NCBI GenBank assembly: GCA_002999035.1
Contig: CP027241.1
Location: 1,305,001-1,369,000, forward strand
DNA length: 64,000 nucleotides
Direction of reading: 5' to 3'
Source: Lachnospiraceae bacterium oral taxon 500
GTDB taxonomy: Bacteria > Bacillota > Clostridia > Lachnospirales > Vallitaleaceae
A program made the position numbers and the translations under genes. The notes below the pieces were generated by a model. The model saw nothing but the letters and a program-made list of their open reading frames with translations. It ran no database searches and was not told the DNA's origin. Positions 30,149-57,275 of the stretch are shown here, in pieces. How positions within the stretch are numbered: position 1 is the first letter of the stretch; each line of letters starts with the position of its first letter.

Positions 30149-30176
30149 TTGACAAAACTTTTATAAATGATATAAT
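30149..30176 (+). promoter_or_regulatory. promoter of the glycolysis-like cluster
   Basis: TTGACA at 30149-30154, a 16-base spacer, and TATAAT at 30171-30176. The first start codon is 230 bases downstream. Confidence 0.8.
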
Positions 30177-30405: not shown

Positions 30406-31617
30406 ATGAACGCAAAATTTGAGGCCAGTACCATTTCCTTACCGCTCCGTCAGCAATCAGAAAGCATTTGGAGCCGGATGCGGGAGAACCGTTTTTACGG
30501 TCGGGATTATTCGGCGGAACATATTTCGGCTTTGCAGGAAAAAGCACGGGCGGTCAGAGAAAAGTGTCAAAGTTTTCTGCTGATCGGGGTAGGCGGCTCC
30601 AATGGTGCCGCTCGGGCAATCATTGAAGGGCTTGATAAAAATGGCAGCCCGAAGATCGTTTATGCCGGCAATGGTCTGTCGCCCCGGCAAATGTCCCGTC
30701 TTTTGCAAGAAGTAGAAGAAAAGGACGTTTGTTTAAATATCATTGCCAAAAACTTTCAGACCCTGGAACCGGGCAGTCATTTTCGGATGCTGCGCGCAGC
30801 CATGGAAAAAAAATACGGCTTGGCGGAGGCGGCGGCCAGAATCGTTGTGACCGGCAGCAAAGGTTCTTTACTGGAAGAAATAGCGGCCGAAAACGGTTAT
30901 ACTTTTTTGGAGTTTGAGCCGGAGATCGGTGGTCGTTTTTCGGCGTTTTCCAATGTCGGGCTTTTTCCGATGGCGGTGGCGGGCATAGATATTGCCGCTT
31001 TGCTGGCCGGACACCGGGAAATGCTGGCGGAAATGGAGGACAGTGCTCACTTTTTGCATGATTATGTGGCGTACCGGCAGGGGGCCTATCAGCAAGGCTA
31101 TAAGATCGAGGTCTTATCAGCCTGTGACTTGGACTTTCGTGAATGGCTGAAGTGGTGGGTACAGCTTTTCGGCGAATCCGAAGGCAAGGAGAAAAAAGGA
31201 CTGTATCCCGACGGTCTTTGCTTTTCCGAAGATTTACATTCAATGGGACAGTTTTTGCAAGACGGCAGTCCGATTTTAATTGAAACCTTTTTGCGGATAA
31301 AAAATTACGGAGAAGCGGTGGAAGTGGCAGCTTCCCGGATTCAGGATGATTTTGCATATTTGGAAGGCAAAAGCTTTGCCCGGATTAACCGGGAAATGGA
31401 GGAGGCCACACTCGGTGCGCATCGGGAGGAAGGGATTCCGGCTTTTTTGCTGGAGATGGAGGATATGAGTGAAAAAGAATGGGGCAAGCTCTTTGTCTTT
31501 TTCATGGCGGCAGTGGTGCTGTCGGCCGAAATCATGGGAGTCAATCCTTTTAATCAGGATGGCGTGGAAAAATACAAGCAAAAAATGTTTCAGCGGCTGT
31601 GGATGGATGGCAGATAA
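30406..31617 (+). CDS. glucose-6-phosphate isomerase-like protein
   Basis: 403 residues, shorter than the usual 450. PGI landmarks are clear: GVGGSNGAARA near 63, IGGRFSAFSNVGLFP near 182, GESEGK and DLHSMGQ near 260-285, a conserved histidine in GAHREE, and NPFNQDGVEKYK near the end. The usual phosphate-binding loop SKSGTTTE is replaced by AKNFQTLE, so the 6-phosphate grip seems lost while the catalytic residues remain. It may isomerise a differently substituted or unphosphorylated hexose. AAGGAG precedes the ATG. It is the first gene of a six-gene same-strand cluster. Confidence 0.8.
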   Translation: MNAKFEASTISLPLRQQSESIWSRMRENRFYGRDYSAEHISALQEKARAVREKCQSFLLIGVGGSNGAARAIIEGLDKNGSPKIVYAGNGLSPRQMSRLLQEVEEKDVCLNIIAKNFQTLEPGSHFRMLRAAMEKKYGLAEAAARIVVTGSKGSLLEEIAAENGYTFLEFEPEIGGRFSAFSNVGLFPMAVAGIDIAALLAGHREMLAEMEDSAHFLHDYVAYRQGAYQQGYKIEVLSACDLDFREWLKWWVQLFGESEGKEKKGLYPDGLCFSEDLHSMGQFLQDGSPILIETFLRIKNYGEAVEVAASRIQDDFAYLEGKSFARINREMEEATLGAHREEGIPAFLLEMEDMSEKEWGKLFVFFMAAVVLSAEIMGVNPFNQDGVEKYKQKMFQRLWMDGR

Positions 31618-31788
31618 GCTGTGAATTTACGGCGGTAGTCCGGCAGAATAGCTTTTTCCTTAGCGGCTCACCCTACGCCGGATAAAGCCCTGAAAGGCGA
31701 TGCCAGCTTGTCTGCCGCGTTTCGAGGAGAGAAAGCGGAGAGGATAAATTTGAATTACCCATAAAACAGTGATAAAATGGAGAAAAAA

Positions 31789-32943
31789 ATGGCAAATAAT
31801 TTATTGATCATTCATGGCGGCGGGCCGACGGCCGTGTTGAATTGTTCTCTTTATGGCACAATTCGGCAGGCGCAGAAAGAACGGCAGATTGACGAGATTT
31901 ACGGCGCTGACGGTGGAATGGGCGGAGCGCTGCGGGAGGACTTGATTGATTTGCGCCAGCAAAAACCGGAAGACATTGAAAAGTTGCTGATTACACCCGG
32001 TTCGGCCATCGGCACCTCGCGTGATCCGATGGAAGCGGAAGATTATGCCCGCCTGCTGTCGGTTTTAGAGAAGCATCAGATTCGCTATGTGCTGTTAAAC
32101 GGCGGCAACGGCACCATGGACACTTGCGGTAAGTTGGCTCGGGCCTGTGCCGGGACGGATATTCGGGTGATGGGCATTCCCAAAACGATTGACAACGATT
32201 TGGCAGTGATTGACCATAGCCCCGGTTATGCCAGTGCTGCCAGATATTTAGCGGAGAGCGTTAAAGAGGCTGTTTTTGACGTTAAGGGTTTGGCCATTCA
32301 TGTGGTGGTGATTGAGGCCATGGGTCGAAACGCCGGTTGGCTGACAGCCGCTTCGGCTTGGGCCAGACAGGAAGCGGGCGATGGCCCGGACTTGATTCTT
32401 TTGCCGGAAAATGCTTTTGTGGAAGAAGAGTTTTTGGCTAAGGTCAAAGCCTTATATGAAGCCAAAGGCGGAGTGGTAGTAGTGGCCAGCGAAGGGCTGC
32501 GCGGGCCGGACGGAACGCCGGTGACGCCGCCGGTCTTTCAAACCGGCCGGTCTCTTTATTTTGGCGATGTCAGCTCGCATTTGGCGATGCTGATCACTAA
32601 AAAGCTGGGGATTAAAGCCCGGTCGGAAAAGCCCGGTATTTTGGGGCGGGCATCTATTCATCTGCGCTCGGAGATTGATGTTAAAGAAGCAATTTTAGTC
32701 GGAGAAGAAGCGGTCAAAGCGGCAGTCGCCGGAGAAAGCGGGAAAATGGTGGGGCTGCGCCGCCTCAGCAATCAGCCGTACCAATCGGAAAGCTTTTTAA
32801 TTCCGGTCGAGCAGGTGATGCTGGCGGAGAAGCAAATGCCGGCTCAGTATTTCAGCCGCTACGACGTGACCCCGGCTTTTTTGGAATGGCTGCGGCCGCT
32901 GATGGGCGGAGAACTGCCGGAACTGGTTAGTTTTCGCCGCTGA
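31789..32943 (+). CDS. phosphofructokinase-family kinase
   Basis: 384 residues. PFK-A fold: an N-terminal glycine-rich loop, GTSRDP near 76, GGNGT near 103, PKTIDND near 133 (catalytic aspartates), MGRNAGW near 180 and ASEGL. Lysine in PKTIDND is typical of PPi-using and related clades, while glycine after GGN is found in ATP users, so the phosphoryl donor cannot be read off. The sugar 6-phosphate contact GHVQRGG of classical PFK appears instead as GRASIHL. I chose ATG 31789, which follows GGAG at 31779; the ATG at 31777 overlaps that site. Confidence 0.8.
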   Translation: MANNLLIIHGGGPTAVLNCSLYGTIRQAQKERQIDEIYGADGGMGGALREDLIDLRQQKPEDIEKLLITPGSAIGTSRDPMEAEDYARLLSVLEKHQIRYVLLNGGNGTMDTCGKLARACAGTDIRVMGIPKTIDNDLAVIDHSPGYASAARYLAESVKEAVFDVKGLAIHVVVIEAMGRNAGWLTAASAWARQEAGDGPDLILLPENAFVEEEFLAKVKALYEAKGGVVVVASEGLRGPDGTPVTPPVFQTGRSLYFGDVSSHLAMLITKKLGIKARSEKPGILGRASIHLRSEIDVKEAILVGEEAVKAAVAGESGKMVGLRRLSNQPYQSESFLIPVEQVMLAEKQMPAQYFSRYDVTPAFLEWLRPLMGGELPELVSFRR

Positions 32944-33071
32944 GGTTACAAAGAGTGGCCGATCGGCTGAAGATAAAACTCGCGGCAGACACAAACGGAG
33001 TTGTCCGGCCGCGCAGGTTTCGAAAAAGCAGGACTCGGGCTGTCAGGCAGCTTTGAGGAGAAGGAGGAGAT

Positions 33072-33887
33072 ATGAATTATTATCAAATATCAGCGGAAGA
33101 TTTGGGAAAAGAAGCGAAGATTCCTATTTTGAAATTGGGCGATTCGGCTGAGGTTTTTTATGAACTGGCAATGATTATGATTCGGGAGATTCGGAAAAAT
33201 AACGAAGCCGGACGGCAAACTGTCTTTATTTGTCCGGTTGGGCCGGTTGGCCAGTACCCGATTTTTGTCCGGCTGGTCAATCAGGAAAAAGTTTCGCTGA
33301 AAAATGTTTGGTTCTTTAATATGGATGAATATTTGCAGGAAAACGGTGAATGGATTGATTCGGAGCATATTCTTTCTTTCCGTGGTTTTATGGCGCGTCA
33401 GGTCTATGACCGGATTGCTCCGGAGCTGGTTATGCCCCGGGAGCAAAGAGTTTTTCCGCAGCCGGATCAGCCCGAGAAGACAGATGAGCGGTTAAAGGCG
33501 CTGGGCGGAGCAGATATTTGTATCGGCGGTATCGGCATCAATGGGCATTTGGCTTTTAATGAGGCGAGCGATACCTTGACGGCAGAGGAGTTTGCCAAGC
33601 TGCCGACCAGAGTATTGACAATTTCACGGGAAACCAGAACAATCAACAGTGCCGGTAGCTTAGGCGGTGCGATTGACGCCATGCCTAAGAGCTGCGTAAC
33701 GCTTGGCATGAAGGAGATATTATCGGCCAAACGGATTGTTTTGGCGGTGTTTCGGGACTGGCACCGGGCGGTTATCCGGCAGGCGGCTTACGGCGAAGTG
33801 ACGGCTCATTTTCCGGCCAGTCTCCTGCAAAGGCATCCGAATGCGCTTATTTTGACCAATGAAAACGCGGCCGGTCCGGCTTTTTAG
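33072..33887 (+). CDS. NagB-like sugar-phosphate deaminase/isomerase
   Basis: 271 residues. Homologous to glucosamine-6-phosphate deaminase: FFNMDEYL matches the LDEYY active-site segment, and GGIGINGHLAFNEAS matches GIGNNGHIGFNEP. The C-terminal part differs from the canonical NagB at 56511-57275, so this is a paralogue with an uncertain substrate, perhaps a different amino sugar phosphate. AGGAGGAG precedes the ATG. It lies between the PFK-like and aldolase genes. Confidence 0.75.
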   Translation: MNYYQISAEDLGKEAKIPILKLGDSAEVFYELAMIMIREIRKNNEAGRQTVFICPVGPVGQYPIFVRLVNQEKVSLKNVWFFNMDEYLQENGEWIDSEHILSFRGFMARQVYDRIAPELVMPREQRVFPQPDQPEKTDERLKALGGADICIGGIGINGHLAFNEASDTLTAEEFAKLPTRVLTISRETRTINSAGSLGGAIDAMPKSCVTLGMKEILSAKRIVLAVFRDWHRAVIRQAAYGEVTAHFPASLLQRHPNALILTNENAAGPAF

Positions 33888-34086
33888 CAGGGAAAACGAA
33901 AAACATTTGACAATTCGGTTATAAAATATATTTCGCTGCCAGTCATGCATCCGGCGGTTGAATTACCGGAAACCGTACAGTCATTTATCAAAGCAAGCAG
34001 GAGAAAGTTTTTTCAGCGGCATTTTGACGGACTGGCGGCACAAGGTCAACCGGATACCGACAGCGGCACAGAATCAGGAGGAAGCT

Positions 34087-35241
34087 ATGCTCACATCGTT
34101 AAAACCTTTATTGGAACTGGCTATCAAATACAATTTTGCCTACGGTGCCTTTAACGTCAACTCGGTCGCCCAGGTGGAAGGGGCGATTCGGATGCATGAA
34201 ATATTCCGCAGTCCGGCCTTGCTGCAAGGCGCAGAACTGGCCAATGCTTTTATGGGCGGGCGAACTGACTTTATGAACGGTACTTTAGAGGAAAAAAAGG
34301 CCGGGATGAAAAATCTGGTGGAGGCCGTCCGCCGGTACGGAGAAGATTCGCCGGTGCCGGTGGTTTTGCACTTAGACCACGGCCAGACCTTTGAATCCTG
34401 TCAGGCGGCGATTGACGCCGGTTATACTTCCGTGATGATTGACGGCAGCAGTAAGCCGTTTGAGGAAAATATGGAATTGACCCGGGAAGTGGTTAAATAT
34501 GCGCATGCCCGGGGAGTCAGCGTCGAAGGAGAGCTGGGGGTGCTGGCCGGGGAGGAGGATCATGTTTTTTCCGAGAATTCGACCTATACTCATCCCTTAG
34601 ATGCCGTCCGTTTTGTTAAGGCCACCGAAGTCGATGCGTTAGCCATCAGCTACGGCACCTCGCATGGGGCGGTCAAGGGCAAGAACGTGAAGCTGCGTAA
34701 GGAAATCGCCATTGCCGTGAATGAATGTCTGGCACATGAGCGTTTATTTTGCGGTTTGGTTTCGCATGGCTCGTCCAATGTGCCGGCCGAAGTGGTTGCG
34801 GAAATTAATGCTTTGGGCGGTCAAATCGGCGAGAGCCACGGCATTCCGATTCCGCAGTTAAAAGAGGTCATTCAAATCGGCGGGATTCGGAAAATTAATG
34901 TCGATACCGATATTCGTTTGGCGACAACCCGTAATATCAGAGAATTGTTCCGCCGCCGGCCCGAACTTTTGGCTGTTGCGGAATTGGCCGAGATTCATAG
35001 GCTGCTTCTGGAAAAACCGGCTGCGTTTGACCCCCGCGCCTATCTGACGCCGGTGATGGATATGGTCATGTCCGGCCGCGTGCCGGGAGCAGAGATGCAA
35101 AGTCTGGCGGAAGCAATAAAAGACGCGGTCATGGAAGTGACCGGCAAGATGATCGTGGAATTTGGCAGTTACCATATGGCACCGTTGGTCAAGGCCAGAA
35201 GTCTGGCGGAGCTGAAAGCGGAATACGGAGCGGCCAGATAA
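34087..35241 (+). CDS. fba: class II fructose-bisphosphate aldolase (CbbA-like)
   Basis: 384 residues. This zinc aldolase splits a ketose bisphosphate into DHAP and an aldehyde phosphate. HLDHGQTFESC (near 97) supplies zinc and catalytic residues, EGELGVLAGEED follows, then GTSHGAVKG and SHGSSNVP. KINVDTDIRLA binds phosphate. The GGQIGESHGIP insert and overall form match the longer Calvin-cycle-type subclass rather than short FbaA; an additional C-terminal stretch makes it longer still. ATG 34087 follows AGGAGG. Sedoheptulose or tagatose bisphosphates are possible alternative substrates. Confidence 0.87.
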   Translation: MLTSLKPLLELAIKYNFAYGAFNVNSVAQVEGAIRMHEIFRSPALLQGAELANAFMGGRTDFMNGTLEEKKAGMKNLVEAVRRYGEDSPVPVVLHLDHGQTFESCQAAIDAGYTSVMIDGSSKPFEENMELTREVVKYAHARGVSVEGELGVLAGEEDHVFSENSTYTHPLDAVRFVKATEVDALAISYGTSHGAVKGKNVKLRKEIAIAVNECLAHERLFCGLVSHGSSNVPAEVVAEINALGGQIGESHGIPIPQLKEVIQIGGIRKINVDTDIRLATTRNIRELFRRRPELLAVAELAEIHRLLLEKPAAFDPRAYLTPVMDMVMSGRVPGAEMQSLAEAIKDAVMEVTGKMIVEFGSYHMAPLVKARSLAELKAEYGAAR

Positions 35242-35422
35242 GCAGCGGCGGATGCAGGAAAAAATGACGGTGTTCTGCCGGAAGCGTAGCGCCTGTCGGC
35301 ATCGAGAATTTGCAAAAAGGCGGTTTCGGTGAACCGGGAAACTGGACGGACGGGAAAGTTGAATTGACGGGAAAGATTAAGGAAAGGCTACCAAAAACAG
35401 GACCCAAGAAAGGCAGGCGTGT

Positions 35423-36271
35423 ATGAAGAAAATTTATTTAAACTTAAAACGGTTTGATGTACCGGCAGCCAGCGGCGGAATTAACCGGCTGGCGCCGATT
35501 GAAAGTTGGGCGCGGGAGATTATTAACCGGACGCAGGACGCTTTGGCCCGGTATGACGGTCAGGCGGAGTTTACTATGTTTTTCCCGGAGGCACATCTGC
35601 TGCTGGCGAAAGCGGCCAGCAACGGCCGAATTCATATCGGCAGTCAGGGCGTGTTTCGGGCGGATATCGGAGCGGGCGGCAATTTCGGCGCTTTTACCAC
35701 CAATTTGCCGGCTACGGCGGCGCGGGAGTTGGGTGCCGATACGGCTCTGATCGGGCACAGTGAGGAGCGGAATGATAAGATCGGTGCTTATATGTTGGGC
35801 GGCGGTGACCGGGGAGCGGTGAATGCGCAGTTGAATATGGAGGTTAAAGCTGCTTTAAAGGCCGGACTGAAAGTGGTTTACTGTATCGGGGAACGAGAGG
35901 ATGAACTGGAATGCTGGGAGAATGTGCTGCGGATCCAGCTCAATATCGGCCTGATGGATGTTGATCCGAAACGGGTGACGATAGCCTATGAGCCGATTTG
36001 GGCGATTGGGCCGGGCAAAACCCCGCCGGATAAGGCATATATTCAAAAGATTGCCCGTTATGTCAATGATCATACCGGCGGTGTGGAGATGGTTTACGGC
36101 GGCGGATTAAAGAAGGAGAATGCCGGTATGCTCGCTCAGATTCCGGAGATTTCCGGCGGGCTGATTGCACTGACCAACTTCGGCGAAAACTTCGGCTTTA
36201 CGCCGGAAGGCTATCTGGAGATTGTCGAAACCTATTTGCAGCAGGGAAAGGAAGAAAAAAATGAGGCTTGA
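35423..36271 (+). CDS. triosephosphate isomerase-like protein
   Basis: 282 residues, longer than the usual 250. The catalytic set is present: N7 and K9 in LNLKRF, His in GHSEER, Glu in AYEPIWAIGPGKTPP. The phosphate-binding parts differ: YGGSV is YGGGL, and the C-terminal GGASL is replaced by GGLIALTNFGENFGF. A glycine-rich stretch (ADIGAGGNFGAF) is inserted before the GHSEE histidine. It probably isomerises a triose- or tetrose-type substrate, but not necessarily DHAP/G3P. AAGAAAGG precedes the ATG. Its end overlaps the LarA-type gene by 11 bases, which suggests coupled translation. Confidence 0.78.
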   Translation: MKKIYLNLKRFDVPAASGGINRLAPIESWAREIINRTQDALARYDGQAEFTMFFPEAHLLLAKAASNGRIHIGSQGVFRADIGAGGNFGAFTTNLPATAARELGADTALIGHSEERNDKIGAYMLGGGDRGAVNAQLNMEVKAALKAGLKVVYCIGEREDELECWENVLRIQLNIGLMDVDPKRVTIAYEPIWAIGPGKTPPDKAYIQKIARYVNDHTGGVEMVYGGGLKKENAGMLAQIPEISGGLIALTNFGENFGFTPEGYLEIVETYLQQGKEEKNEA

Positions 36272-37694
36272 GTTTGAGTATGGAAAAGGAACGATGAGCG
36301 CGGAACTGCCGGATACAACCGATGTTTTTATTCCGGGAGTGACGGTGCCCGATCCGGAGCATATTCCGGAGGAAAAACTGGAGGAAGAAACGCTCAAAAG
36401 CTTGCGGGCGCCGATTGGCATGCCGCCGTTAACGGAACTGGCTCAGGCCGGCAGTAAATGTGTGATTGTGTTTCCTGACCGGGTCAAGGGCGGGGAGCAG
36501 CCGACCTCGCACCGAAAGATAGCAATTAAGCTCATTTTGCAGGAGCTTTATTCGGCCGGCGTTAAAAAAGAGGATATCCTGCTGCTTTGCTCGAACGGCC
36601 TGCATCGGAAGAACACCAAGGAAGAAATTTTGGGTGTTTTGGGGCGGGAGCTGTTTGATGAGTTTTGGCTCAGCGGTCAGATTAAAAATCATGACAGTGA
36701 GGATTATGACCATTTGATTGATTTGGGAACGACCCGCCGGGGCGATCCGGTCATTATGAATAAATATGTTTATGACGCGGATGTGGCGATTATGATCGGC
36801 CATGTTCAGGGCAATCCCTACGGCGGCTACAGCGGCGGCTATAAGCATTCGGCTACGGGAATTACTCACTGGCGCAGCATTGCCAGCCATCATACGCCCA
36901 GCGTGATGCACCGGCAGGATTTTACGCCGGTCAGCGGTCACAGCCTGATGCGTTCTAAGTTCGATGAGATCAGTATGCATATGGAAGAAAAAATGGGCAA
37001 AAAGTTTTTCTGCTGCGATGCGGTGCTGGACACCAAGAGCCGGCAGATTGCTATTTTCAGCGGTTATGCCAAAGAAATGCAGCCGCTGAGCTGGCAGGTA
37101 GCCGACCGGCGCACCTATGTGCATTGGGCGGAGAAAAAATATGATGTTTTGGTGTTTGGGATGCCTCAGTTTTTCCATTACGGCGAAGGCATGGGCACCA
37201 ATCCGATCATGTTTATGCAGGCAATTTCGGCGCAGGTGATCCGGCATAAACGGGTTTTGAGCGATCGCTGTGTTATCATTTGTTCGAGCCTGTGTAATGG
37301 GTACTTCCATGAGGAGCTGTGGCCCTATCTGCCGAAGCTGTATAATATGTTTCAGCATGATCAGATGAACACTTTGCCGGATTTGGACCGCTACGGTGAA
37401 TATTTTGCCACCGATCAGGAGTTTATTCGGCAGTACCGGTACTGCAATGCGTTCCATCCGTTTCATGGTTTTTCCATGATCAGCTGTGCCCATATCGCGG
37501 AAAAGAATGCGGCGGCCATTTATATTGTCGGCGCGCAGGAGCCGGGCTATGCCAGGGGCATGGGCTGTAAGACCAGAGCCAGTTTTGAAGAAGCTTTGGC
37601 GGATGCCGTGAAGATAGTGGGAGAAAATCCGAACATTCTGGCTCTGCCGCTGACTTTTAAAACCTCGGCAGTTCATTTGTGCATGAAGGATTAA
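36261..37694 (+). CDS. LarA-family (DUF2088) nickel-dependent racemase
   Basis: 477 residues, longer than lactate racemase of about 425. LarA features include SNGLHRKNTKEE near 111-122 (catalytic histidine region) and GGYSGGYKHSATG near 190, where the lysine that anchors the nickel-pincer cofactor is expected. Members racemise or epimerise 2-hydroxy acids. The maturation genes larB, larC and larE are not in the window. ATG 36261 follows AAGGAAG and overlaps the TIM-like gene. As the last gene of a sugar cluster, its substrate is more likely a sugar-derived hydroxy acid than free lactate, but that is inference. Confidence 0.8.
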   Translation: MRLEFEYGKGTMSAELPDTTDVFIPGVTVPDPEHIPEEKLEEETLKSLRAPIGMPPLTELAQAGSKCVIVFPDRVKGGEQPTSHRKIAIKLILQELYSAGVKKEDILLLCSNGLHRKNTKEEILGVLGRELFDEFWLSGQIKNHDSEDYDHLIDLGTTRRGDPVIMNKYVYDADVAIMIGHVQGNPYGGYSGGYKHSATGITHWRSIASHHTPSVMHRQDFTPVSGHSLMRSKFDEISMHMEEKMGKKFFCCDAVLDTKSRQIAIFSGYAKEMQPLSWQVADRRTYVHWAEKKYDVLVFGMPQFFHYGEGMGTNPIMFMQAISAQVIRHKRVLSDRCVIICSSLCNGYFHEELWPYLPKLYNMFQHDQMNTLPDLDRYGEYFATDQEFIRQYRYCNAFHPFHGFSMISCAHIAEKNAAAIYIVGAQEPGYARGMGCKTRASFEEALADAVKIVGENPNILALPLTFKTSAVHLCMKD

Positions 37695-37971: not shown

Positions 37972-38409
37972 ATGAAAGTAGAAGGCGGATATTTAATCGG
38001 CAGGGCCAAATTTCTTAGCGGAAGAAAGCTAAATAAACTGTTTTCTGAATATGGGCTTACGGAATTTAATGGGGAGCAAGGCAAAATATTATTCTGCTTG
38101 TGGAAAAAAGACGGTGTCAGCAGTACGGACATCTCCTTAGGTACAGGGCTGGCAATCAATACTTTGACCAATATGCTTGACAAGATGGAAAGTGTGGATT
38201 TAATTTACCGAAAGCAGAGTGATACGGATAAAAGAAAAAAATATGTGTTTCTAACAGAGAAAGGAAGATCATTAGAAATCAAGTCTAAAATAGCAACGGA
38301 TAAAATGGATGAGATTTTCTATAAGGGTTTTTCAACAAAAGAGATAGAAACATTTGAAAATATGTTAAGAAAGATCATTTCTAATTTGGAGGAAGAAGAT
38401 GATAAATAG
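37972..38409 (+). CDS. MarR-family transcriptional regulator
   Basis: 145 residues. A winged helix-turn-helix (STDISLGTGLAINTLTNMLDKME, about 47-69) is followed by the wing with DTDKRKKYVFLTEKG, typical of MarR. It overlaps the permease gene by 11 bases. Palindromic operators in its promoter suggest it represses its own operon until a ligand or oxidant releases it. Codon use is AT-rich like its downstream neighbours and unlike the preceding cluster. Confidence 0.88.
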   Translation: MKVEGGYLIGRAKFLSGRKLNKLFSEYGLTEFNGEQGKILFCLWKKDGVSSTDISLGTGLAINTLTNMLDKMESVDLIYRKQSDTDKRKKYVFLTEKGRSLEIKSKIATDKMDEIFYKGFSTKEIETFENMLRKIISNLEEEDDK

Positions 38410-39939
38410 GATTATAGAAGAGTTGTCAAGCAACTCATCATTTTATTGGAACCTTTTGCTGGAGCATATCGTTATTACCTTTACGGCAGTGATCATTGCC
38501 ATAGCGGTAGGGCTTTCGATTGGCATATTCATTTCGCAAAAACCTAAAATTGCGGGCTACATAATATCCGTTGTAAATATAGCCTATACGATCCCGTCGA
38601 TCGCACTTTTGGGCTTTTTGATCTCTCTGACAGGAATAGGAAATACAACGGCAATCATTGCTCTGACCATATACGCATTACTGCCCATCGTTCGAAGTAC
38701 CTATGTGGGCATAACTACGATCGATCCTAAAATCATTGAAGCAAGCAGAGCTATGGGAGCAGGGAATTTCAAATCTTGTATCAGATTAAACTTCCTTTGG
38801 CATTTCCGGTAATATTTTCATCGATCATGAATATGGTGACGATGACAATAGCCTTAGCCGGAATTGCTTCATTTGTTGGGGCGGGCGGCTTAGGCGTGGC
38901 AATTTATAGAGGAATTACCACAAACAATGACATTCTTATTTTGATCGGAAGCCTGCTGATTGCGGTATTGGCTTTGACAGTTGATGGGATTTTAAGCTTA
39001 TTTGGGAAATTGGCTTCCGCTCATAAATTAAAAAAACTGGCAAATAAAAAAACAGGATGGACAGCAGGTCTTATTCTGCTCATCGCCCTGTCTGTCTTCG
39101 GACTTTATCGGAGTGGTAAGAACAATAGTATTGAAATTGCTTCCAAGCCAACATCAGAAGGCTATATATTGGCGGAACTGGTTGGGGCGTTGATAAAGAA
39201 TGACACTGCGTTAAATGTGAATATAACACATGGTGTAGGCGGCGGAACATCTAACATTCATCCGGCGATCGTAAAGGGAGACTTTGATATGTATCCCGAA
39301 TATACGGGAACCGCCTGGCAAATCGTGTTAAAGAAAACAGAACCGTATACGAATGAAAATTTTGACATGCTGGATGCAGAATACCGAAAGGAATATAAAC
39401 TGACATGGAAGGGAATGTTCGGATTTAATAATACTTACAGCTTAGGCATAAGAACAGACTTGGCAGAAGAATATAAGATTAAGATATTTTCGGATTTAGC
39501 CAAGTATGCAGAAAAATTTATCTTTGGAGCAGAATATGATTTCTTTGAAAGAGAAGACGGTTATGAGGCATTGGCAGATGCCTATAAATTCCAATTCAAA
39601 AAGGCTGTGGATATGGATAACGGCCTGAAATATCAGGCATCATATGATAAAAAGATTGATGTTATGACAGTGTTTACAACCGATGGGCAGATCTCAGATC
39701 CAAGACTTGTGGTTCTGGAAGATGATCTCGGCTTTTATCCGAAATATATGGCGGGTATGGTGGTAAGAGAAGAAATACTCGGTAAACATCCGGAGTTAAA
39801 TGCTGTATTAGAAAAATTAAATGGCTTGATTGATGAGAGCACCATGGCTGCTTTGAATAAAAAAGTCGAAATCGATAAAGAAAATCCAAGTGATGTGGCA
39901 AAAAATTTCTTGAGAGAAAAAGGACTTGTGGAGGAATAA
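38399..39939 (+). pseudogene. OpuC-type ABC permease fused to substrate-binding domain, frameshifted
   Basis: The first frame (38399-38812) holds most of a membrane permease; the second (from about 38773 to 39939) continues it as LYQIKLPLAFPVI, then a linker and an OpuAC-type binding domain (about 250 residues). The break lies at 38771-38775, where CAAATC would need one more A to restore NFKILYQIKLPLAFPVI. Intact, this is the permease-binding fusion known in quaternary-amine, betaine or ergothioneine importers. Either a one-base deletion inactivated it or the base call is wrong; an A3 run is too short for efficient slippage. Confidence 0.8.
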
Positions 39940-39940
39940 A

Positions 39941-40670
39941 ATGAGTAAAATCATAGAATACAAAAATATCGGCAAATCCTATAACGGAAAATGGGTAGTC
40001 CGAAACTTCAATCTTAGTATAAATGAAGGGGATTTTATTTGCATAGTAGGAACATCAGGCTCCGGAAAAACCACGCTCCTAAAAATGATCAACGGACTTT
40101 TGAAACCCGATGAAGGAGAGATCATGATTTCCGGAAAAAATATTCTGAATGAAGACATCATCTCGCTTAGAAGAAAGATTGGCTATGCAATCCAAGGAAA
40201 TGGATTGTTTCCTCACATGACAGTTTCGGAAAATATAGGCTATGTCCCAAGACTTGAAAAAAAAAGAGGAGAAAACAATAAATGAGATTATCGACAGGAT
40301 GCTGTCTCTTGTCGGGTTGCCTTTAGATATAAAAGAGAAGTATCCCGACGAATTATCGGGCGGGCAGCAACAGCGTGTCGGCATTGCAAGAGCATATGCC
40401 AACTCTCCGCTCATACTCTTAATGGATGAGCCTTTTGGTGCGGTTGACTCAATAACAAGGTATCAACTGCAAAAGGACTTGAAAGAGATCCATAAACAAA
40501 CGAATTGCACCATTATCTTTATCACACATGATATTTATGAAGCTTTTAAAATGGGGACTCATATTTTGGTGATGGATGACGGAGAAATTCAGCAGTATGG
40601 AACAACGGAAGAGGTATGGGATCATCCAAGCAATGATTTTGTAAAAAAATTGATAGAAATGACGAGGTAA
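39941..40670 (+). pseudogene. OpuCA-type ABC ATPase, frameshifted at an A9 tract
   Basis: The first frame (39941-40285) has Walker A GTSGSGKTTL, Q-loop and IGYVPRLEKK. The second (40242-40670) continues with EEKTINEIID, signature LSGGQQQR, Walker B ILLMDEPFGAVD and the H-loop THD. The join is at 40257-40265, nine A residues where eight would keep frame. RNA polymerase slippage on A9 could still yield some full-length protein. The C-terminal CBS domains of OpuCA are absent. It follows the permease fusion with overlapping stop and GGAGG site. Confidence 0.8.
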
Positions 40671-40677
40671 TAAAAAG

Positions 40678-41625
40678 ATGATGAGAGCAGTGGTAGTTTA
40701 TGAAGCCGGCGGAACGGATAAATTAGTATTTCAAGAAGTGCCAAAACCAAAAATGAAAGCGGGTTGGTCGCTCATAAAAGTAAAGGGATTTGGCATAAAT
40801 CGCTCAGAAATTTTTACCAGAAAGGGATATTCACCAAGTGTTCAATTTCCGAGAATACTGGGGATTGAATGTGTTGGTATCATTGAACGGAGCGAAAAAT
40901 TTGAAGCCGGAACGAAGATCGTATCCATAATGGGAGAAATGGGAAGAGCGTTTGACGGAAGTTATGCCCAGTATGTATTGTTGCCGGACGAACAAATTTA
41001 TCCGGTAGAAAGTAATTTGCCGTGGGAAGTATTGGCGGCGATACCTGAAACATACTATACTTCATACGGATGTTTTACAAACTTAAGAATCACAGATAAA
41101 GATGAGATACTGGTTAGGGGAGCAAGCAGTGCAACCGGTATAGCTTTTTGCAATTTGGTAAGATCCTGCTTTCCGAAAACAAAAATCTATGGAAGTACCC
41201 AGAATATGTCCAAAAAAGAAAGTTTAACGGCGAGTGGTTTTGAGGATATATTTGAAGACAAGGACTATACATTGCAAACGGAAAAAAAGTTTGACAAGAT
41301 ACTTGAATTAGTCGGTCCGCGATCGATTAAAGATTCGATTAAGCATCTGAACCGCTTCGGGATTGTTTGCAGTGCAGGGCAGCTGGGAGAACAATGGTTC
41401 TTGGAAGAGTTTGATCCAATCATGGAGCTTCAAAATGATATATACTTGACTACTTTTTATTCCGGTATTGTTGATTCTTTCCGGCTAAAGGAGATGTTTC
41501 GCTTTATCGATGAGCATAATGTGACGGTAAATCCAAGCAAGGTTTTCCGTTTGGATGAAATTCAAAAAGCGCATGAGTATATAGAAAGTAAAAAGGGATT
41601 TGGAAAAGTGGTATGCCTTGTATGA
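40678..41625 (+). CDS. zinc-independent MDR oxidoreductase (quinone-reductase-like)
   Basis: 315 residues. N-terminal GroES-like domain (about 1-115: MMRAVVVYEAGG, later GIECVGI) and a Rossmann domain (about 116-260) with VRGASSATGIAF in place of the usual GAAGGVG. Zinc ligands of alcohol dehydrogenases are absent. It is probably an NAD(P)H-dependent quinone or enone reductase. It closes the MarR operon, 8 bases after the ATPase gene. A MarR-controlled oxidoreductase suggests a detoxification role alongside the importer. AT-rich like the rest of the block. Confidence 0.82.
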   Translation: MMRAVVVYEAGGTDKLVFQEVPKPKMKAGWSLIKVKGFGINRSEIFTRKGYSPSVQFPRILGIECVGIIERSEKFEAGTKIVSIMGEMGRAFDGSYAQYVLLPDEQIYPVESNLPWEVLAAIPETYYTSYGCFTNLRITDKDEILVRGASSATGIAFCNLVRSCFPKTKIYGSTQNMSKKESLTASGFEDIFEDKDYTLQTEKKFDKILELVGPRSIKDSIKHLNRFGIVCSAGQLGEQWFLEEFDPIMELQNDIYLTTFYSGIVDSFRLKEMFRFIDEHNVTVNPSKVFRLDEIQKAHEYIESKKGFGKVVCLV

Positions 41626-41690: not shown

Positions 41691-41785
41691 ATCTTTATTT
41701 ATAAGGCCGGCAAGATGCTGTGTGCCGGTATTATCAGTGCGGATGGGCGAAAAAGCCGAGCCGTTTTTTCGGCTGAGGAGGAATG

Positions 41786-42568
41786 ATGGAAGTTTTATTT
41801 TTTTTGGTAGCGTTTTTAGCGTCGATTGTCGGAGCGATTTGCGGCATCGGCGGCGGTGTTATTATCAAGCCGACACTGGATTCTTTCCATGTCATGTCGG
41901 TGGCGGCGATCAGTTTTCTGTCGGGCTGCACGGTGCTGACCATGTCCGCGTATTCGGTGATAAAAGCGAAACTATCGGGCGATTCGGCGGTGGAAACGAA
42001 AACCGGTTTGCCGCTGGCGGCCGGAGCGGTCATCGGCGGGATTTTGGGTAAGGAATTATTTGATCTGGTCGGTAATCTCGTAGCCAATAAAGAACAGGTC
42101 GGCATGATTCAGGCAGTTTGCCTGCTGATTATCACTTTGGGTACTTTGCTGTATACCTTGTTTAAAGATAAAATTCAAACCAGGCAAATCCAAAATCCTG
42201 TCCTCAGCGGATTGATTGGCTTGATTTTGGGGATGGTGTCCGCTTTTCTTGGTATTGGCGGCGGCCCGATTAATCTGGTGGTGCTGTTTTATTTCTTTTC
42301 CATGCCGACCAAGACGGCGGCGGCCAATTCGCTTTATATCATCCTTTTTTCGCAGCTGGCCAGTTTTTTGAGAGTGGTTTTAAGCGGCAAGATCCCGGCA
42401 GTTGCACCACTCCTGCTGCTGATTACGGTGGCTGGCGGCATGGCCGGCGGGATGGTCGGCCGCAAGATTAACCGCCGGATTGACAGCCGCGTGGTAGACC
42501 GCCTGTTTATCGGCCTGATGGTGGTTTTGATTGGGATTAATGCCTATAATATCTGGCGTTTTTGGTAG
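41786..42568 (+). CDS. TauE/SafE-family sulfite/anion exporter
   Basis: 260 residues with about eight membrane helices. Two copies of the family glycine motif are visible: GAICGIGGGVIIKP near 16-29 and SAFLGIGGGPINL near 155. The family exports sulfite, sulfoacetate or related organosulfur anions, and many members are uncharacterised. ATG 41786 is preferred over 41783 because GGAGG ends only one base before the latter. It stands alone between the AT-rich block and the ABC exporter pair. Confidence 0.85.
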   Translation: MEVLFFLVAFLASIVGAICGIGGGVIIKPTLDSFHVMSVAAISFLSGCTVLTMSAYSVIKAKLSGDSAVETKTGLPLAAGAVIGGILGKELFDLVGNLVANKEQVGMIQAVCLLIITLGTLLYTLFKDKIQTRQIQNPVLSGLIGLILGMVSAFLGIGGGPINLVVLFYFFSMPTKTAAANSLYIILFSQLASFLRVVLSGKIPAVAPLLLLITVAGGMAGGMVGRKINRRIDSRVVDRLFIGLMVVLIGINAYNIWRFW

Positions 42569-55378: not shown

Positions 55379-56521
55379 ATGAAAGCAGTCATTAACGGAA
55401 AAGTTTATCTTGACTCGCATTTTGCGGAAGATAAGGTCATTCTTTTTGAGGAAACGATTCAGCAAATTATCGACCGGGCGGACTGGGACGGCAAGGCGGA
55501 TCAGATTATTGATGCGGGCGGTGCATATGTCACGCCGGGCTTTGTCGATGTCCATATTCACGGCTTTAACGGCGCGGACGTAATGGACGGGAAAACAGAA
55601 TCGCTGAGCGTCATGGCCAAGGGGCTGACGGCCAACGGCGTGACTTCTTTTTTGGCGACGACCATGACCATGGGCGTGCCGCTGATTCGCAGTGCTTTGG
55701 CGGCGGTCAGAAAATATACTGAGGACGCCGCTTTGTCCCGGCAGGGAGCGGAGATTGTGGGCGTGCATTTGGAAGGGCCATTTATCAACCCTAAGAAAAA
55801 AGGCGCGCAGCGGGGCGAGGACATTATTCCGGCGGATATTCGGGTAATTGAGGGTTATGAGGATTTGGTCAAGGTCATTACCATTGCGCCGGAAATGCCG
55901 GATAATATGGCTTTTATTGAAAAATACGCCGATCGGTTCTGCTTTTCGATCGGTCATACCGATGCCGATTATGATACTGCCAAAACAGCCGTGCAAAAGG
56001 GCGCGAAAGGGATGACGCATTTATTTAACGCTATGACTCCGCTCCAGCACCGTGCACCCGGCGTGGTGACGGCAGGGCTGACGGAAGACATTTATACGGA
56101 ACTGATTGCCGATACGATTCATGTTCATAAGGGAATTTTTGAACTGATTTATAAGCAAAAGGGCGTAAGCCGCCTGATTTTGATTACCGATGCCATGCGC
56201 GGTGCGGGGATGGCCGAGGGCAATTATGATTTGGGCGGACAAGAGGTTATTATTAAGGACGGGCGCTGCCTTTTGATTGATGGTACTTTGGCCGGCAGCG
56301 TGCTGAAGCTGAATGATGCAGTTCGCAATTTCAGTGAAAGTACGACCATCGGTTTAGAAAAAGTGATTCCGCTGGCGACGTTGACACCGGCCACTTATAT
56401 CGGTGTGCAGGATCGCAAGGGGAGTTTGGAAGTCGGGAAAGACGCCGATATCGTGCTGCTAGATGATAAAATCAAAGTATTAAAGACAATTGCCAGAGGA
56501 GAAGTGAAGTATGAAGCTTAA
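55379..56521 (+). CDS. nagA: N-acetylglucosamine-6-phosphate deacetylase
   Basis: 380 residues. It removes acetate from GlcNAc-6-phosphate, giving GlcN-6-phosphate for NagB. Amidohydrolase landmarks: VDVHIHGFNG near 58, HLEGPFINPKKKGAQ near 129, GHTDADY near 194, the THLFNAM segment and catalytic aspartate in ITDAMRG near 272. It overlaps nagB by 11 bases, so the two are coupled. No GlcNAc transporter or NagR/GntR regulator is in the window. The site is GGGAAGAAG before ATG. Confidence 0.95.
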   Translation: MKAVINGKVYLDSHFAEDKVILFEETIQQIIDRADWDGKADQIIDAGGAYVTPGFVDVHIHGFNGADVMDGKTESLSVMAKGLTANGVTSFLATTMTMGVPLIRSALAAVRKYTEDAALSRQGAEIVGVHLEGPFINPKKKGAQRGEDIIPADIRVIEGYEDLVKVITIAPEMPDNMAFIEKYADRFCFSIGHTDADYDTAKTAVQKGAKGMTHLFNAMTPLQHRAPGVVTAGLTEDIYTELIADTIHVHKGIFELIYKQKGVSRLILITDAMRGAGMAEGNYDLGGQEVIIKDGRCLLIDGTLAGSVLKLNDAVRNFSESTTIGLEKVIPLATLTPATYIGVQDRKGSLEVGKDADIVLLDDKIKVLKTIARGEVKYEA

Positions 56522-57275
56522 TTATAGGGGAATGACAGTCTATGTGGAAAAAGATTACGCGGCCATGAGCCGAGCAGCGGCCGGACTTGTGCTGCAAACG
56601 GTGAAAGCCAAACCGGCGGCCGTTTTGGGCTTAGCCACCGGCAGCACGCCAATCGGCATGTATCAGGAGCTGGTCAAGGCTTATCAGCGGGGCGAGGTTG
56701 ATTTTGCCCAGACCGTCAGCTATAACTTGGACGAATATTATCCGATCAACCATGATAATGACCAAAGCTATCATTATTTCATGCGGGAAAACTTGTTCCG
56801 GCATATCAATATCCGACCGGAAAACACCCATGTGCCGAGCGGCGAAGCAAAAGATGTCGAGAAATCAGCGGCTGAGTATGACGACCGGCTCTATGAGCTG
56901 GGCGGCGTCGATTTGCAGGTGCTGGGTATCGGCAACAATGGGCATATTGGCTTTAATGAACCGGCGGATGTCTTTGCCAAGGGAACGGGTCTGGTTGACC
57001 TGACCGCCAGCACGATCGAGGCTAATTCCCGGTTTTTCGCTTCGATTGATGATGTACCGAAAAAAGCGGTGTCAATGGGGATTGCTACTATCATGCAGGC
57101 GAAGCAAATTATGCTCTTAGCCAGCGGACAGGGTAAGGCCGGAATTATTGCGCAGACGATTCTGGGTGAAATTACGCCGCAGGTGCCGGCATCGGCCTTG
57201 CAGCTTCACCGCAATGTTACCTTCTTTTTAGATGAGGCCGCGGCGGCGGAACTTTTGGCCGGGCTGGGGAAATAG
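56511..57275 (+). CDS. nagB: glucosamine-6-phosphate deaminase
   Basis: 254 residues, typical for NagB. It converts GlcN-6-phosphate to fructose-6-phosphate plus ammonia. SYNLDEYYPI near 70 and GIGNNGHIGFNEP near 139-151 carry the catalytic residues, and LATGSTPIG near 43 binds phosphate. It is coupled to nagA by overlap. A hairpin with T-run at 57766-57812, beyond three repeats, is the first good terminator. A divergent paralogue lies at 33072-33887. Confidence 0.95.
   Translation: MKLNYRGMTVYVEKDYAAMSRAAAGLVLQTVKAKPAAVLGLATGSTPIGMYQELVKAYQRGEVDFAQTVSYNLDEYYPINHDNDQSYHYFMRENLFRHINIRPENTHVPSGEAKDVEKSAAEYDDRLYELGGVDLQVLGIGNNGHIGFNEPADVFAKGTGLVDLTASTIEANSRFFASIDDVPKKAVSMGIATIMQAKQIMLLASGQGKAGIIAQTILGEITPQVPASALQLHRNVTFFLDEAAAAELLAGLGK

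Follow-up and report, generated by a model that had tools for sequence, protein, structure and literature searches.

A cluster of six genes in a window of 64,000 nucleotides from Lachnospiraceae bacterium oral taxon 500 (contig CP027241.1, positions 1,305,001 to 1,369,000; coordinates below are those of the window) appears to encode a pathway devoted to hexoses, mostly amino hexoses, that bear a group other than phosphate on C6. We put the probability of this reading at about 0.8. The original prediction had described six same-strand genes mirroring upper glycolysis together with the racemase homologue LarA, and the open reading frame (ORF) list of the window agreed with it: the six genes occupy 30406-37694, all on the + strand, and the motifs quoted for them are present. 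Their products resemble phosphoglucose isomerase (PGI), phosphofructokinase (PFK), glucosamine-6-phosphate deaminase (NagB), class II fructose-bisphosphate aldolase (FBA), triosephosphate isomerase (TIM) and LarA.

30406..31617, + strand: PGI-like isomerase, 403 amino acids; catalytic Arg, Glu, His and Lys kept, SKSGTTTE changed to AKNFQTLE
31777..32943, + strand: PFK-like protein, 388 amino acids, of the PRK14072 (diphosphate-dependent type) family by NCBIfam
33072..33887, + strand: NagB-like deaminase/isomerase, 271 amino acids; active-site Asp, His and Glu kept, phosphate loop two residues shorter, K208 changed to His, R172 lost
33958..35241 (longest ORF), + strand: class II aldolase-like protein; motifs on the dihydroxyacetone phosphate (DHAP) side kept
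35423..36271, + strand: TIM-like protein, 282 amino acids; N11, K13, H95, E97 and E165 kept, S211, G232 and G233 changed to G, A and L
36261..37694, + strand (longest ORF starts at 36222): LarA of the single-histidine subfamily

Relatives of the TIM-like and LarA proteins were searched for in a class sample of 291 genomes, and an alignment of ten TIM-like proteins served as query against species genomes, where at least 572 stretches held a relative. The best 80 of these, nine loci from the class sample (eight genomes) and the window itself made up the 90 loci studied, from Clostridia and relatives. As the 80 were chosen by score, gene frequencies among the loci are not those of a random sample; many of the 80 are, by record title and without a tally, from gut, rumen or faecal Lachnospiraceae and Oscillospiraceae. 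Flavonifractor plautii and Roseburia inulinivorans each yielded a locus in the species-genome search. Residues were counted by aligned position against the canonical paralogue of the same genome, since literal patterns (GESEGK 12/28, LH[AS][MV]GQ 15/28, GVE[AK]YK 22/28, GHxAFNE 44/51) were partly too strict. Proteins too short for these counts were left out (2 of 59 PFK, 2 of 53 NagB, 2 of 55 NagA, 2 of 59 FBA and 6 of 84 LarA). The phosphate-contacting residues and the reference numbering for TIM, PGI, NagB, NagA and class II aldolase are those that we take to be standard.

In the TIM-like protein, the five catalytic residues listed above were retained in 90/90 cases, and the three changes at S211, G232 and G233 were likewise found in 90/90. 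Among 23 other TIMs used as a control, YGGS was present in 23 and a GGAS-like motif in 20, and neither YGGGL nor GGLIALT occurred in any (0/23). The predicted model of the TIM-like protein matched solved TIMs (TIM barrel), with the last strand predicted at residues 245-248. As originally noted, YGGSV has become YGGGL while the catalytic residues are kept; the second pairing proposed at the time, GGASL with GGLIALTNF, was out of register, since LVGGAS aligns to LIALTN. Because both the alignment and the predicted last strand match LVGGAS to LIALTN, the two phosphate-binding glycines of TIM correspond, by this prediction, to Ala-Leu in the TIM-like protein.

The PGI-like protein retained its catalytic R272, E357, H388 and K518 in 28/28 cases. 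Its phosphate loop departed from SK[ST]xTT, with S209 changed to A and T211 to N in 28/28, and K210 and T214 were retained in 28/28. Going beyond the earlier observations, we found that the NagB-like protein, and a NagA-like deacetylase encoded at sister loci, share this pattern of changed phosphate sites. In the NagB-like proteins, active-site D72 was retained in 50/51 and H143 and E148 in 51/51, whereas the centre of the phosphate loop (TG[GS][ST]), S43/T44, was deleted and K208 replaced by H in all 51. New conserved arginines near position 208 (FRdWHR) may compensate for the lost anion contacts. The NagA-like proteins kept all seven metal or catalytic positions tested (53/53) and had H for the phosphate-contacting R227 (53/53); the one protein tried against TIGR00221, from locus L131, passed with 279 bits for a cut-off of 226. 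As for family models, Pfam matched five of the six window proteins above cut-off (PGI, PFK, class II aldolase, TIM and LarA N-terminal families) and gave no match for the NagB-like protein of the window, which NCBIfam matched to NagB at 114 bits, below the cut-off of 237. Only the PFK-like protein passed the cut-off of its best NCBIfam match, the other cluster families being matched below theirs, and such scores would fit, as expected, diverged family members.

The exchange of GHVQRGG for GRASIHL in the PFK-like protein had also been read as a change of its phosphate site. This comparison proved uninformative, because the protein belongs to the PRK14072 family (408 bits, curated cut-off of NF010675 273), unlike the ATP-PFK used as reference. 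The solved PRK14072 member 3hno has YLQRAARH aligned to ILGRASIH of the PFK-like protein, and a PFK paralogue of the same genome has, by eye, LAQRSAS at the matching site. We thus gave up this candidate as mostly a difference between families, the change relative to its own family being small. The aldolase-like proteins retained the DHAP-side motifs HG[SG]S (56/57) and [NV]VDTD (57/57), and the serine in the LQCS segment of the Giardia aldolase is Ala in their consensus. The residue pattern would fit the same chemistry with another group on C6 and the C1 phosphate kept, the aldolase being the least clear case.

Canonical pgi, pfk and tpi were found elsewhere in the genome, which is a single contig of 3.2 Mb: a PGI gene near 57 kb that has both SKSGTTTE and GESEGK, four further PFKs, and two further TIM genes, which score 327 and 251 bits with the family model (113.5 for the TIM-like protein). 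Since separate canonical pgi and tpi exist, the cluster genes are extra paralogues and not the only copies. An apparently canonical nagA-nagB pair lies in the window itself at 55379-57275, 18 kb downstream of the altered cluster; its NagB passes the family cut-off and its NagA, at 55379, retains the phosphate arginine (R227). The gene for LarC, which the nickel cofactor requires, lies at genome position 2618940. The idea of a parallel pathway for another sugar derivative is thus well supported by the canonical pgi and tpi, by the changed contacts to the C6 phosphate and by a gene neighbourhood that recurs as an operon across the 90 loci. At G000:C1:704242-713410 (L141, L137), a further NagB-like gene, scoring under the family cut-off, stands about 8 kb from a NagA-like gene that has no usual arginine motif, possibly as another amino-sugar cluster.

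Among the 90 loci, LarA was encoded at 84, FBA at 60 (two of them with only a less similar aldolase; 58 at at least 50% identity), PFK at 59, NagA at 55, a SsuA-type binding protein at 53, NagB at 52, the exporter-type protein TauE at 39, PGI at 28, a transaldolase at 10 and ChrA at 6. Sensor-kinase-like ORFs were seen in 29 loci (one confirmed by Pfam), and 21 loci have a response-regulator-like one. When 95 of 142 selected neighbour ORFs were tallied with Pfam, the 25 families listed (207 matched) comprised regulators and general sugar genes only.

The tie between the TIM-like protein and LarA was tight. A close TIM-like relative was present in 9/291 class genomes (best match at least 192 bits, against 81 bits for the best in any other genome), LarA of this type in 9/291 (E <= 1e-60, a threshold of our own choice), and at these thresholds the nine genomes were identical. 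The pairing is therefore not due to chance. The two genes lie on the same strand in 83/84 loci, and each of the six loci with no LarA match breaks off no more than 600 bases from the TIM-like gene. Distances of about 2.3 kb between the two were an artefact of overlapping matches, and only the strand count was retained. Two loci deserve a remark: at L043:6646-8300 larA is split into two overlapping ORFs, by a possible frameshift or assembly error, and at L050:1116-10865 (G179) the pair stands beside an alcohol-dehydrogenase-like gene, split transketolase genes and a Ssu-type transporter, in a genome with three LarA genes of this type.

In ten loci a gene of the transaldolase/FSA type accompanied the TIM-like gene, and PFK and FBA were both absent in 10/10, whereas one or the other was present in 71/80 loci that had no transaldolase. 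All ten loci fell into one clade of the tree of TIM-like proteins (support 100/96). Replacement of PFK plus FBA by transaldolase is one event, and the Fisher P of 1.6e-8 (90 loci) is not meaningful as a sign of many. Both routes yield a C3 piece that includes C6. This points to a TIM-like protein that works downstream of the cleavage, with the C6-bearing piece as its substrate. Transketolase was found in 3 of the 9 loci having neither PFK, FBA nor transaldolase, against 1 of the 81 others, counts too few to claim a third variant.

The window LarA matched LarASp (9q2u/9q3k) and LarABw (9q3j) over nearly the full length, with 851 and 857 bits. The first catalytic histidine (H108) was retained in 77/78 proteins and the second (H174) was Asn in 78/78; by these residues the window LarA is a member of the single-histidine subfamily. 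Lactate racemization was not detected for a solved relative of this subfamily, whose bound ligand is unidentified (PMC12393405). No dehydrogenase that would make a hydroxy acid for LarA was common among the recurrent ORF groups listed. Taken with the missing histidine and the lack of racemization, this leaves the original prediction of a pathway ending in a hydroxy acid handled by LarA without support.

We infer the order of the steps, the identity of the C6 group and the reaction of the TIM-LarA pair as follows. A taurine/sulfonate-type ABC importer, present at sister loci, would bring in the C6-modified sugar and the NagA-like enzyme would deacetylate it. The NagB-like protein would convert 6-modified glucosamine to 6-modified fructose, and the PGI-like protein would give the same product from the glucose form. 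After phosphorylation of C1 by the PFK-like protein, the aldolase-like protein (or a transaldolase-type one in one clade) would release DHAP to normal glycolysis and a C3 aldehyde holding the C6 group. The TIM-like protein would make the enediol of this aldehyde, LarA would finish its removal by intramolecular hydride transfer, and the TauE-type protein would export the product. For the last steps we propose, as a rather doubtful possibility, that the enediol of glyceraldehyde-3-sulfate expels sulfate to give methylglyoxal, because the TIM-like protein is freed of the loops that hold phosphate in plane, and that the nickel cofactor of LarA takes a hydride from methylglyoxal hydrate, leaving pyruvate, and gives it back to form D-lactate. 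If true, this route would be a cofactor-internal glyoxalase needing a histidine on one face only, a non-racemase reaction of the nickel cofactor, and it would explain the inseparable TIM-LarA pair, the lost second histidine and the missing common dehydrogenase.

As to the C6 group, there is about an even chance that it is a sulfate ester, most likely that of N-acetylglucosamine (GlcNAc)-6-sulfate as it occurs in mucin. The importer and exporter types speak for it, as do the sulfatases and the pairing of NagA with NagB. The gut also offers a supply of the sugar, since Bifidobacterium bifidum releases 6-sulfo-GlcNAc without using it (available part of PMC11186840). The gene tauE was the next match after larA in 19 of the 38 loci with both. 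The 148 class genomes used as background gave 245 matches to the TauE family, half genes among them, so that about 1 would be expected in the 1.53 Mb of summed locus length against 40 found, the latter by tblastn, unlike the background, and with genomes estimated at about 2.5 Mb; at least one NMT1-family match occurs in 130 of the 148. A profile of five binding proteins had as nearest solved structure a taurine-binding protein, then others including sulfonate-binding proteins, and one SsuA-type protein scored 119 bits with the SsuA family model, below the cut-off of 163.5. Three loci (L043, L077 and L091) have confirmed sulfatases. The SIS proteins of L077 and L120, relatives of GlmD and AgaS that score below cut-off, might suit a galactosamine form. 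Twelve loci encode a DUF4838 protein whose predicted fold comes closest to that of GH20 hexosaminidases and also resembles GH138, GH84, GH67 and GH89, at a TM-score of about 0.5, a likeness that we take as a hint at the level of the fold only. With N-acetylglucosaminidases and other glycoside hydrolases as its nearest folds, the DUF4838 family (L060:15161-17101 and 11 other loci) may represent glycosidases of a new family.

Several observations weigh against this picture. The window cluster itself has neither NagA nor the importer. A gene for SsuA, SsuC, TauE, ChrA or a sulfatase of the query type occurred in 74/90 loci, including all nine class-sample loci, a count that is partly circular, as the importer, exporter and sulfur-gene queries came in part from these same loci; the 16 others lack any such gene, although several are short contigs and L091 has sulfatase ORFs. 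Further neighbours of the binding-protein profile bind pyrimidine precursors and nitrate. The aldolase-like proteins retained DPR in 57/57, and it is the Arg of this motif that presumably contacts the C6 phosphate. Ten loci have PGI but neither NagA nor NagB, so that not every substrate is an amino sugar; a close GH3 glycosidase is encoded in five of them (L086, L091, L096, L105 and L112), and an MFS_2-type sugar transporter in L096 and L105, genes that suggest a second substrate, other than an amino sugar. Finally, R172 of NagB is Asp in 49/51 proteins and R in none (0/51; the letters NSR appear in two of the 51, not as aligned R172), and T213 of PGI is Glu in 25/28. Both residues are ill-suited to an anion and would suit a hydrogen-bond donor better.

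These last replacements would fit a neutral C6 group, either a free hydroxyl or the methyl of 6-deoxy amino sugars such as N-acetylquinovosamine (QuiNAc) or N-acetylfucosamine (FucNAc). The phosphate pocket would then be filled, the donors having been replaced by Ala, Val, Leu, Asp, Glu or His (Leu for G233 in every TIM-like protein, Val for T41 in 49/51 NagB-like ones), and the TIM-like protein and LarA would convert glyceraldehyde or lactaldehyde. Aldose-1-epimerase-type queries match 13/90 loci, and the GH3 gene in half of the ten loci with PGI but neither NagA nor NagB points the same way. We nevertheless hold a neutral group to be unlikely, as it leaves unexplained the sulfonate-type importer (53/90), TauE (39/90), ChrA (6 loci) and the sulfatases (3 loci), and a free hydroxyl would presumably need no dedicated triose branch, given ordinary kinases. 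A sulfonate, that is, a sulfoquinovose-like sugar degraded by a further enzyme set for sulfoglycolysis, would account for the importer and exporter, whose families take their names from sulfonates and sulfite, for the PGI loci without NagA or NagB, and for Embden-Meyerhof-Parnas (EMP)-like, transaldolase and possibly transketolase variants that parallel those of sulfoglycolysis. It appears improbable in view of NagA and NagB in more than half of the loci, and we know of no natural 6-sulfo-hexosamine. In its available main text, a 2026 review of sulfoquinovose catabolism never mentions triose, racemase, glucosamine, SsuA or TauE (PMC12890257).

With a carboxylate on C6, as in N-acetylhexosaminuronic acids, the TIM-like protein would isomerize tartronate semialdehyde and hydroxypyruvate into each other; LarA would have a true 2-hydroxy acid as substrate, in keeping with its usual class, and the smaller group would fit the filled TIM loop. 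This reading we consider very unlikely: the second histidine of LarA is missing, the recurrent groups include no gene recognized as specific for uronates, and known uronate routes use other enzymes. That the proteins are ordinary extra isozymes, merely diverged and acting on the usual phosphates, is hardly credible. All of them do belong to glycolytic or GlcNAc-pathway families, and the aldolase retains every motif checked, but elsewhere the phosphate contacts have changed uniformly while the catalytic residues were retained, and canonical copies exist in the genome. A C6-modified hexose, with sulfate as the leading candidate for the modification, remains our preferred reading.

Returning to the layout of the window, two further features accompany the six genes.

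30149..30176, + strand: promoter-like site TTGACA-16-TATAAT with TG before the second hexamer, 12/12 matches in a consensus scan, a match that alone is no proof of function
41783..42568, + strand: putative TauE/SafE-type exporter, 57% identical to TauE of L092, where tauE comes after larA

The promoter-like site lies about 230 bases upstream of the first gene, that of the PGI-like protein. The listed aldolase-like ORF probably begins too early, the expected start being the internal Met codon at 34087, and larA most likely starts at the ATG at 36261, overlapping the end of the TIM-like gene by 11 bases. By analogy with L092, the tauE gene at 41783-42568 probably belongs to the operon too. Between larA and tauE, the stretch 37972-41625 has a lower GC content (about 0.38-0.41) and holds, by eye, a MarR-type regulator, an OpuB-type transporter and a quinone oxidoreductase-like gene; its permease/binding-protein gene and its ATPase gene are each broken into two overlapping frames, apparently by frameshifts.

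Around the 80 best-scoring relatives, up to about ten genes keep reappearing as an uncharacterized set, which automatic annotation would label as glycolysis and GlcNAc metabolism. If its substrate is GlcNAc-6-sulfate, the set would name consumers of a sulfated mucin sugar that need no prior sulfatase, and it provides concrete candidate substrates for a nickel-cofactor enzyme whose 2025 structure holds an unidentified ligand. No published description of such a pathway was found in the part of the open-licence literature covered. Glycolysis-like gene neighbours of single-histidine LarA are already in print (PMC12393405; available part of PMC12611868). LarASp and LarABw belong to the same subfamily as the LarA described here, with Asn for the second histidine. 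As far as covered, the same two sources make no mention of altered phosphate sites, a Ssu-type importer, TauE, a NagA partner or a transaldolase variant. The LarA neighbourhood was thus known, and the changed phosphate sites and the wider operon appear to be new relative to them.

Sulfoglycolysis of sulfoquinovose (sulfo-EMP, sulfo-transaldolase and sulfo-transketolase) is similar in being a parallel glycolysis in which an anion, as proposed here, stands for the C6 phosphate, and in having EMP-like and transaldolase variants with common downstream genes. The operon differs from it in its enzyme families, as far as compared, with NagA and NagB at the top and the TIM-like protein plus LarA at the bottom, without a common reductase or dehydrogenase, and its substrate is a predicted one. 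Sulfoquinovosidase, sulfoquinovose isomerase, PfkB-type sulfofructose kinase and sulfolactaldehyde reductase or dehydrogenase were absent from the recurrent families listed, no search having been aimed at them. The NagA-NagB pathway of GlcNAc-6-phosphate catabolism uses a homologous deacetylase and deaminase, whose catalytic residues are kept in the operon paralogues, whereas their contacts to the C6 phosphate are not. In Bifidobacterium breve, a sulfatase removes the sulfate of GlcNAc-6-sulfate first. Use of this sugar by B. breve has been credited to N-acetylglucosamine-6-phosphate deacetylase (available part of PMC11186840). The proposed substrate is the same; in contrast, the sulfate would here stay in place through the C6 and C3 stages.

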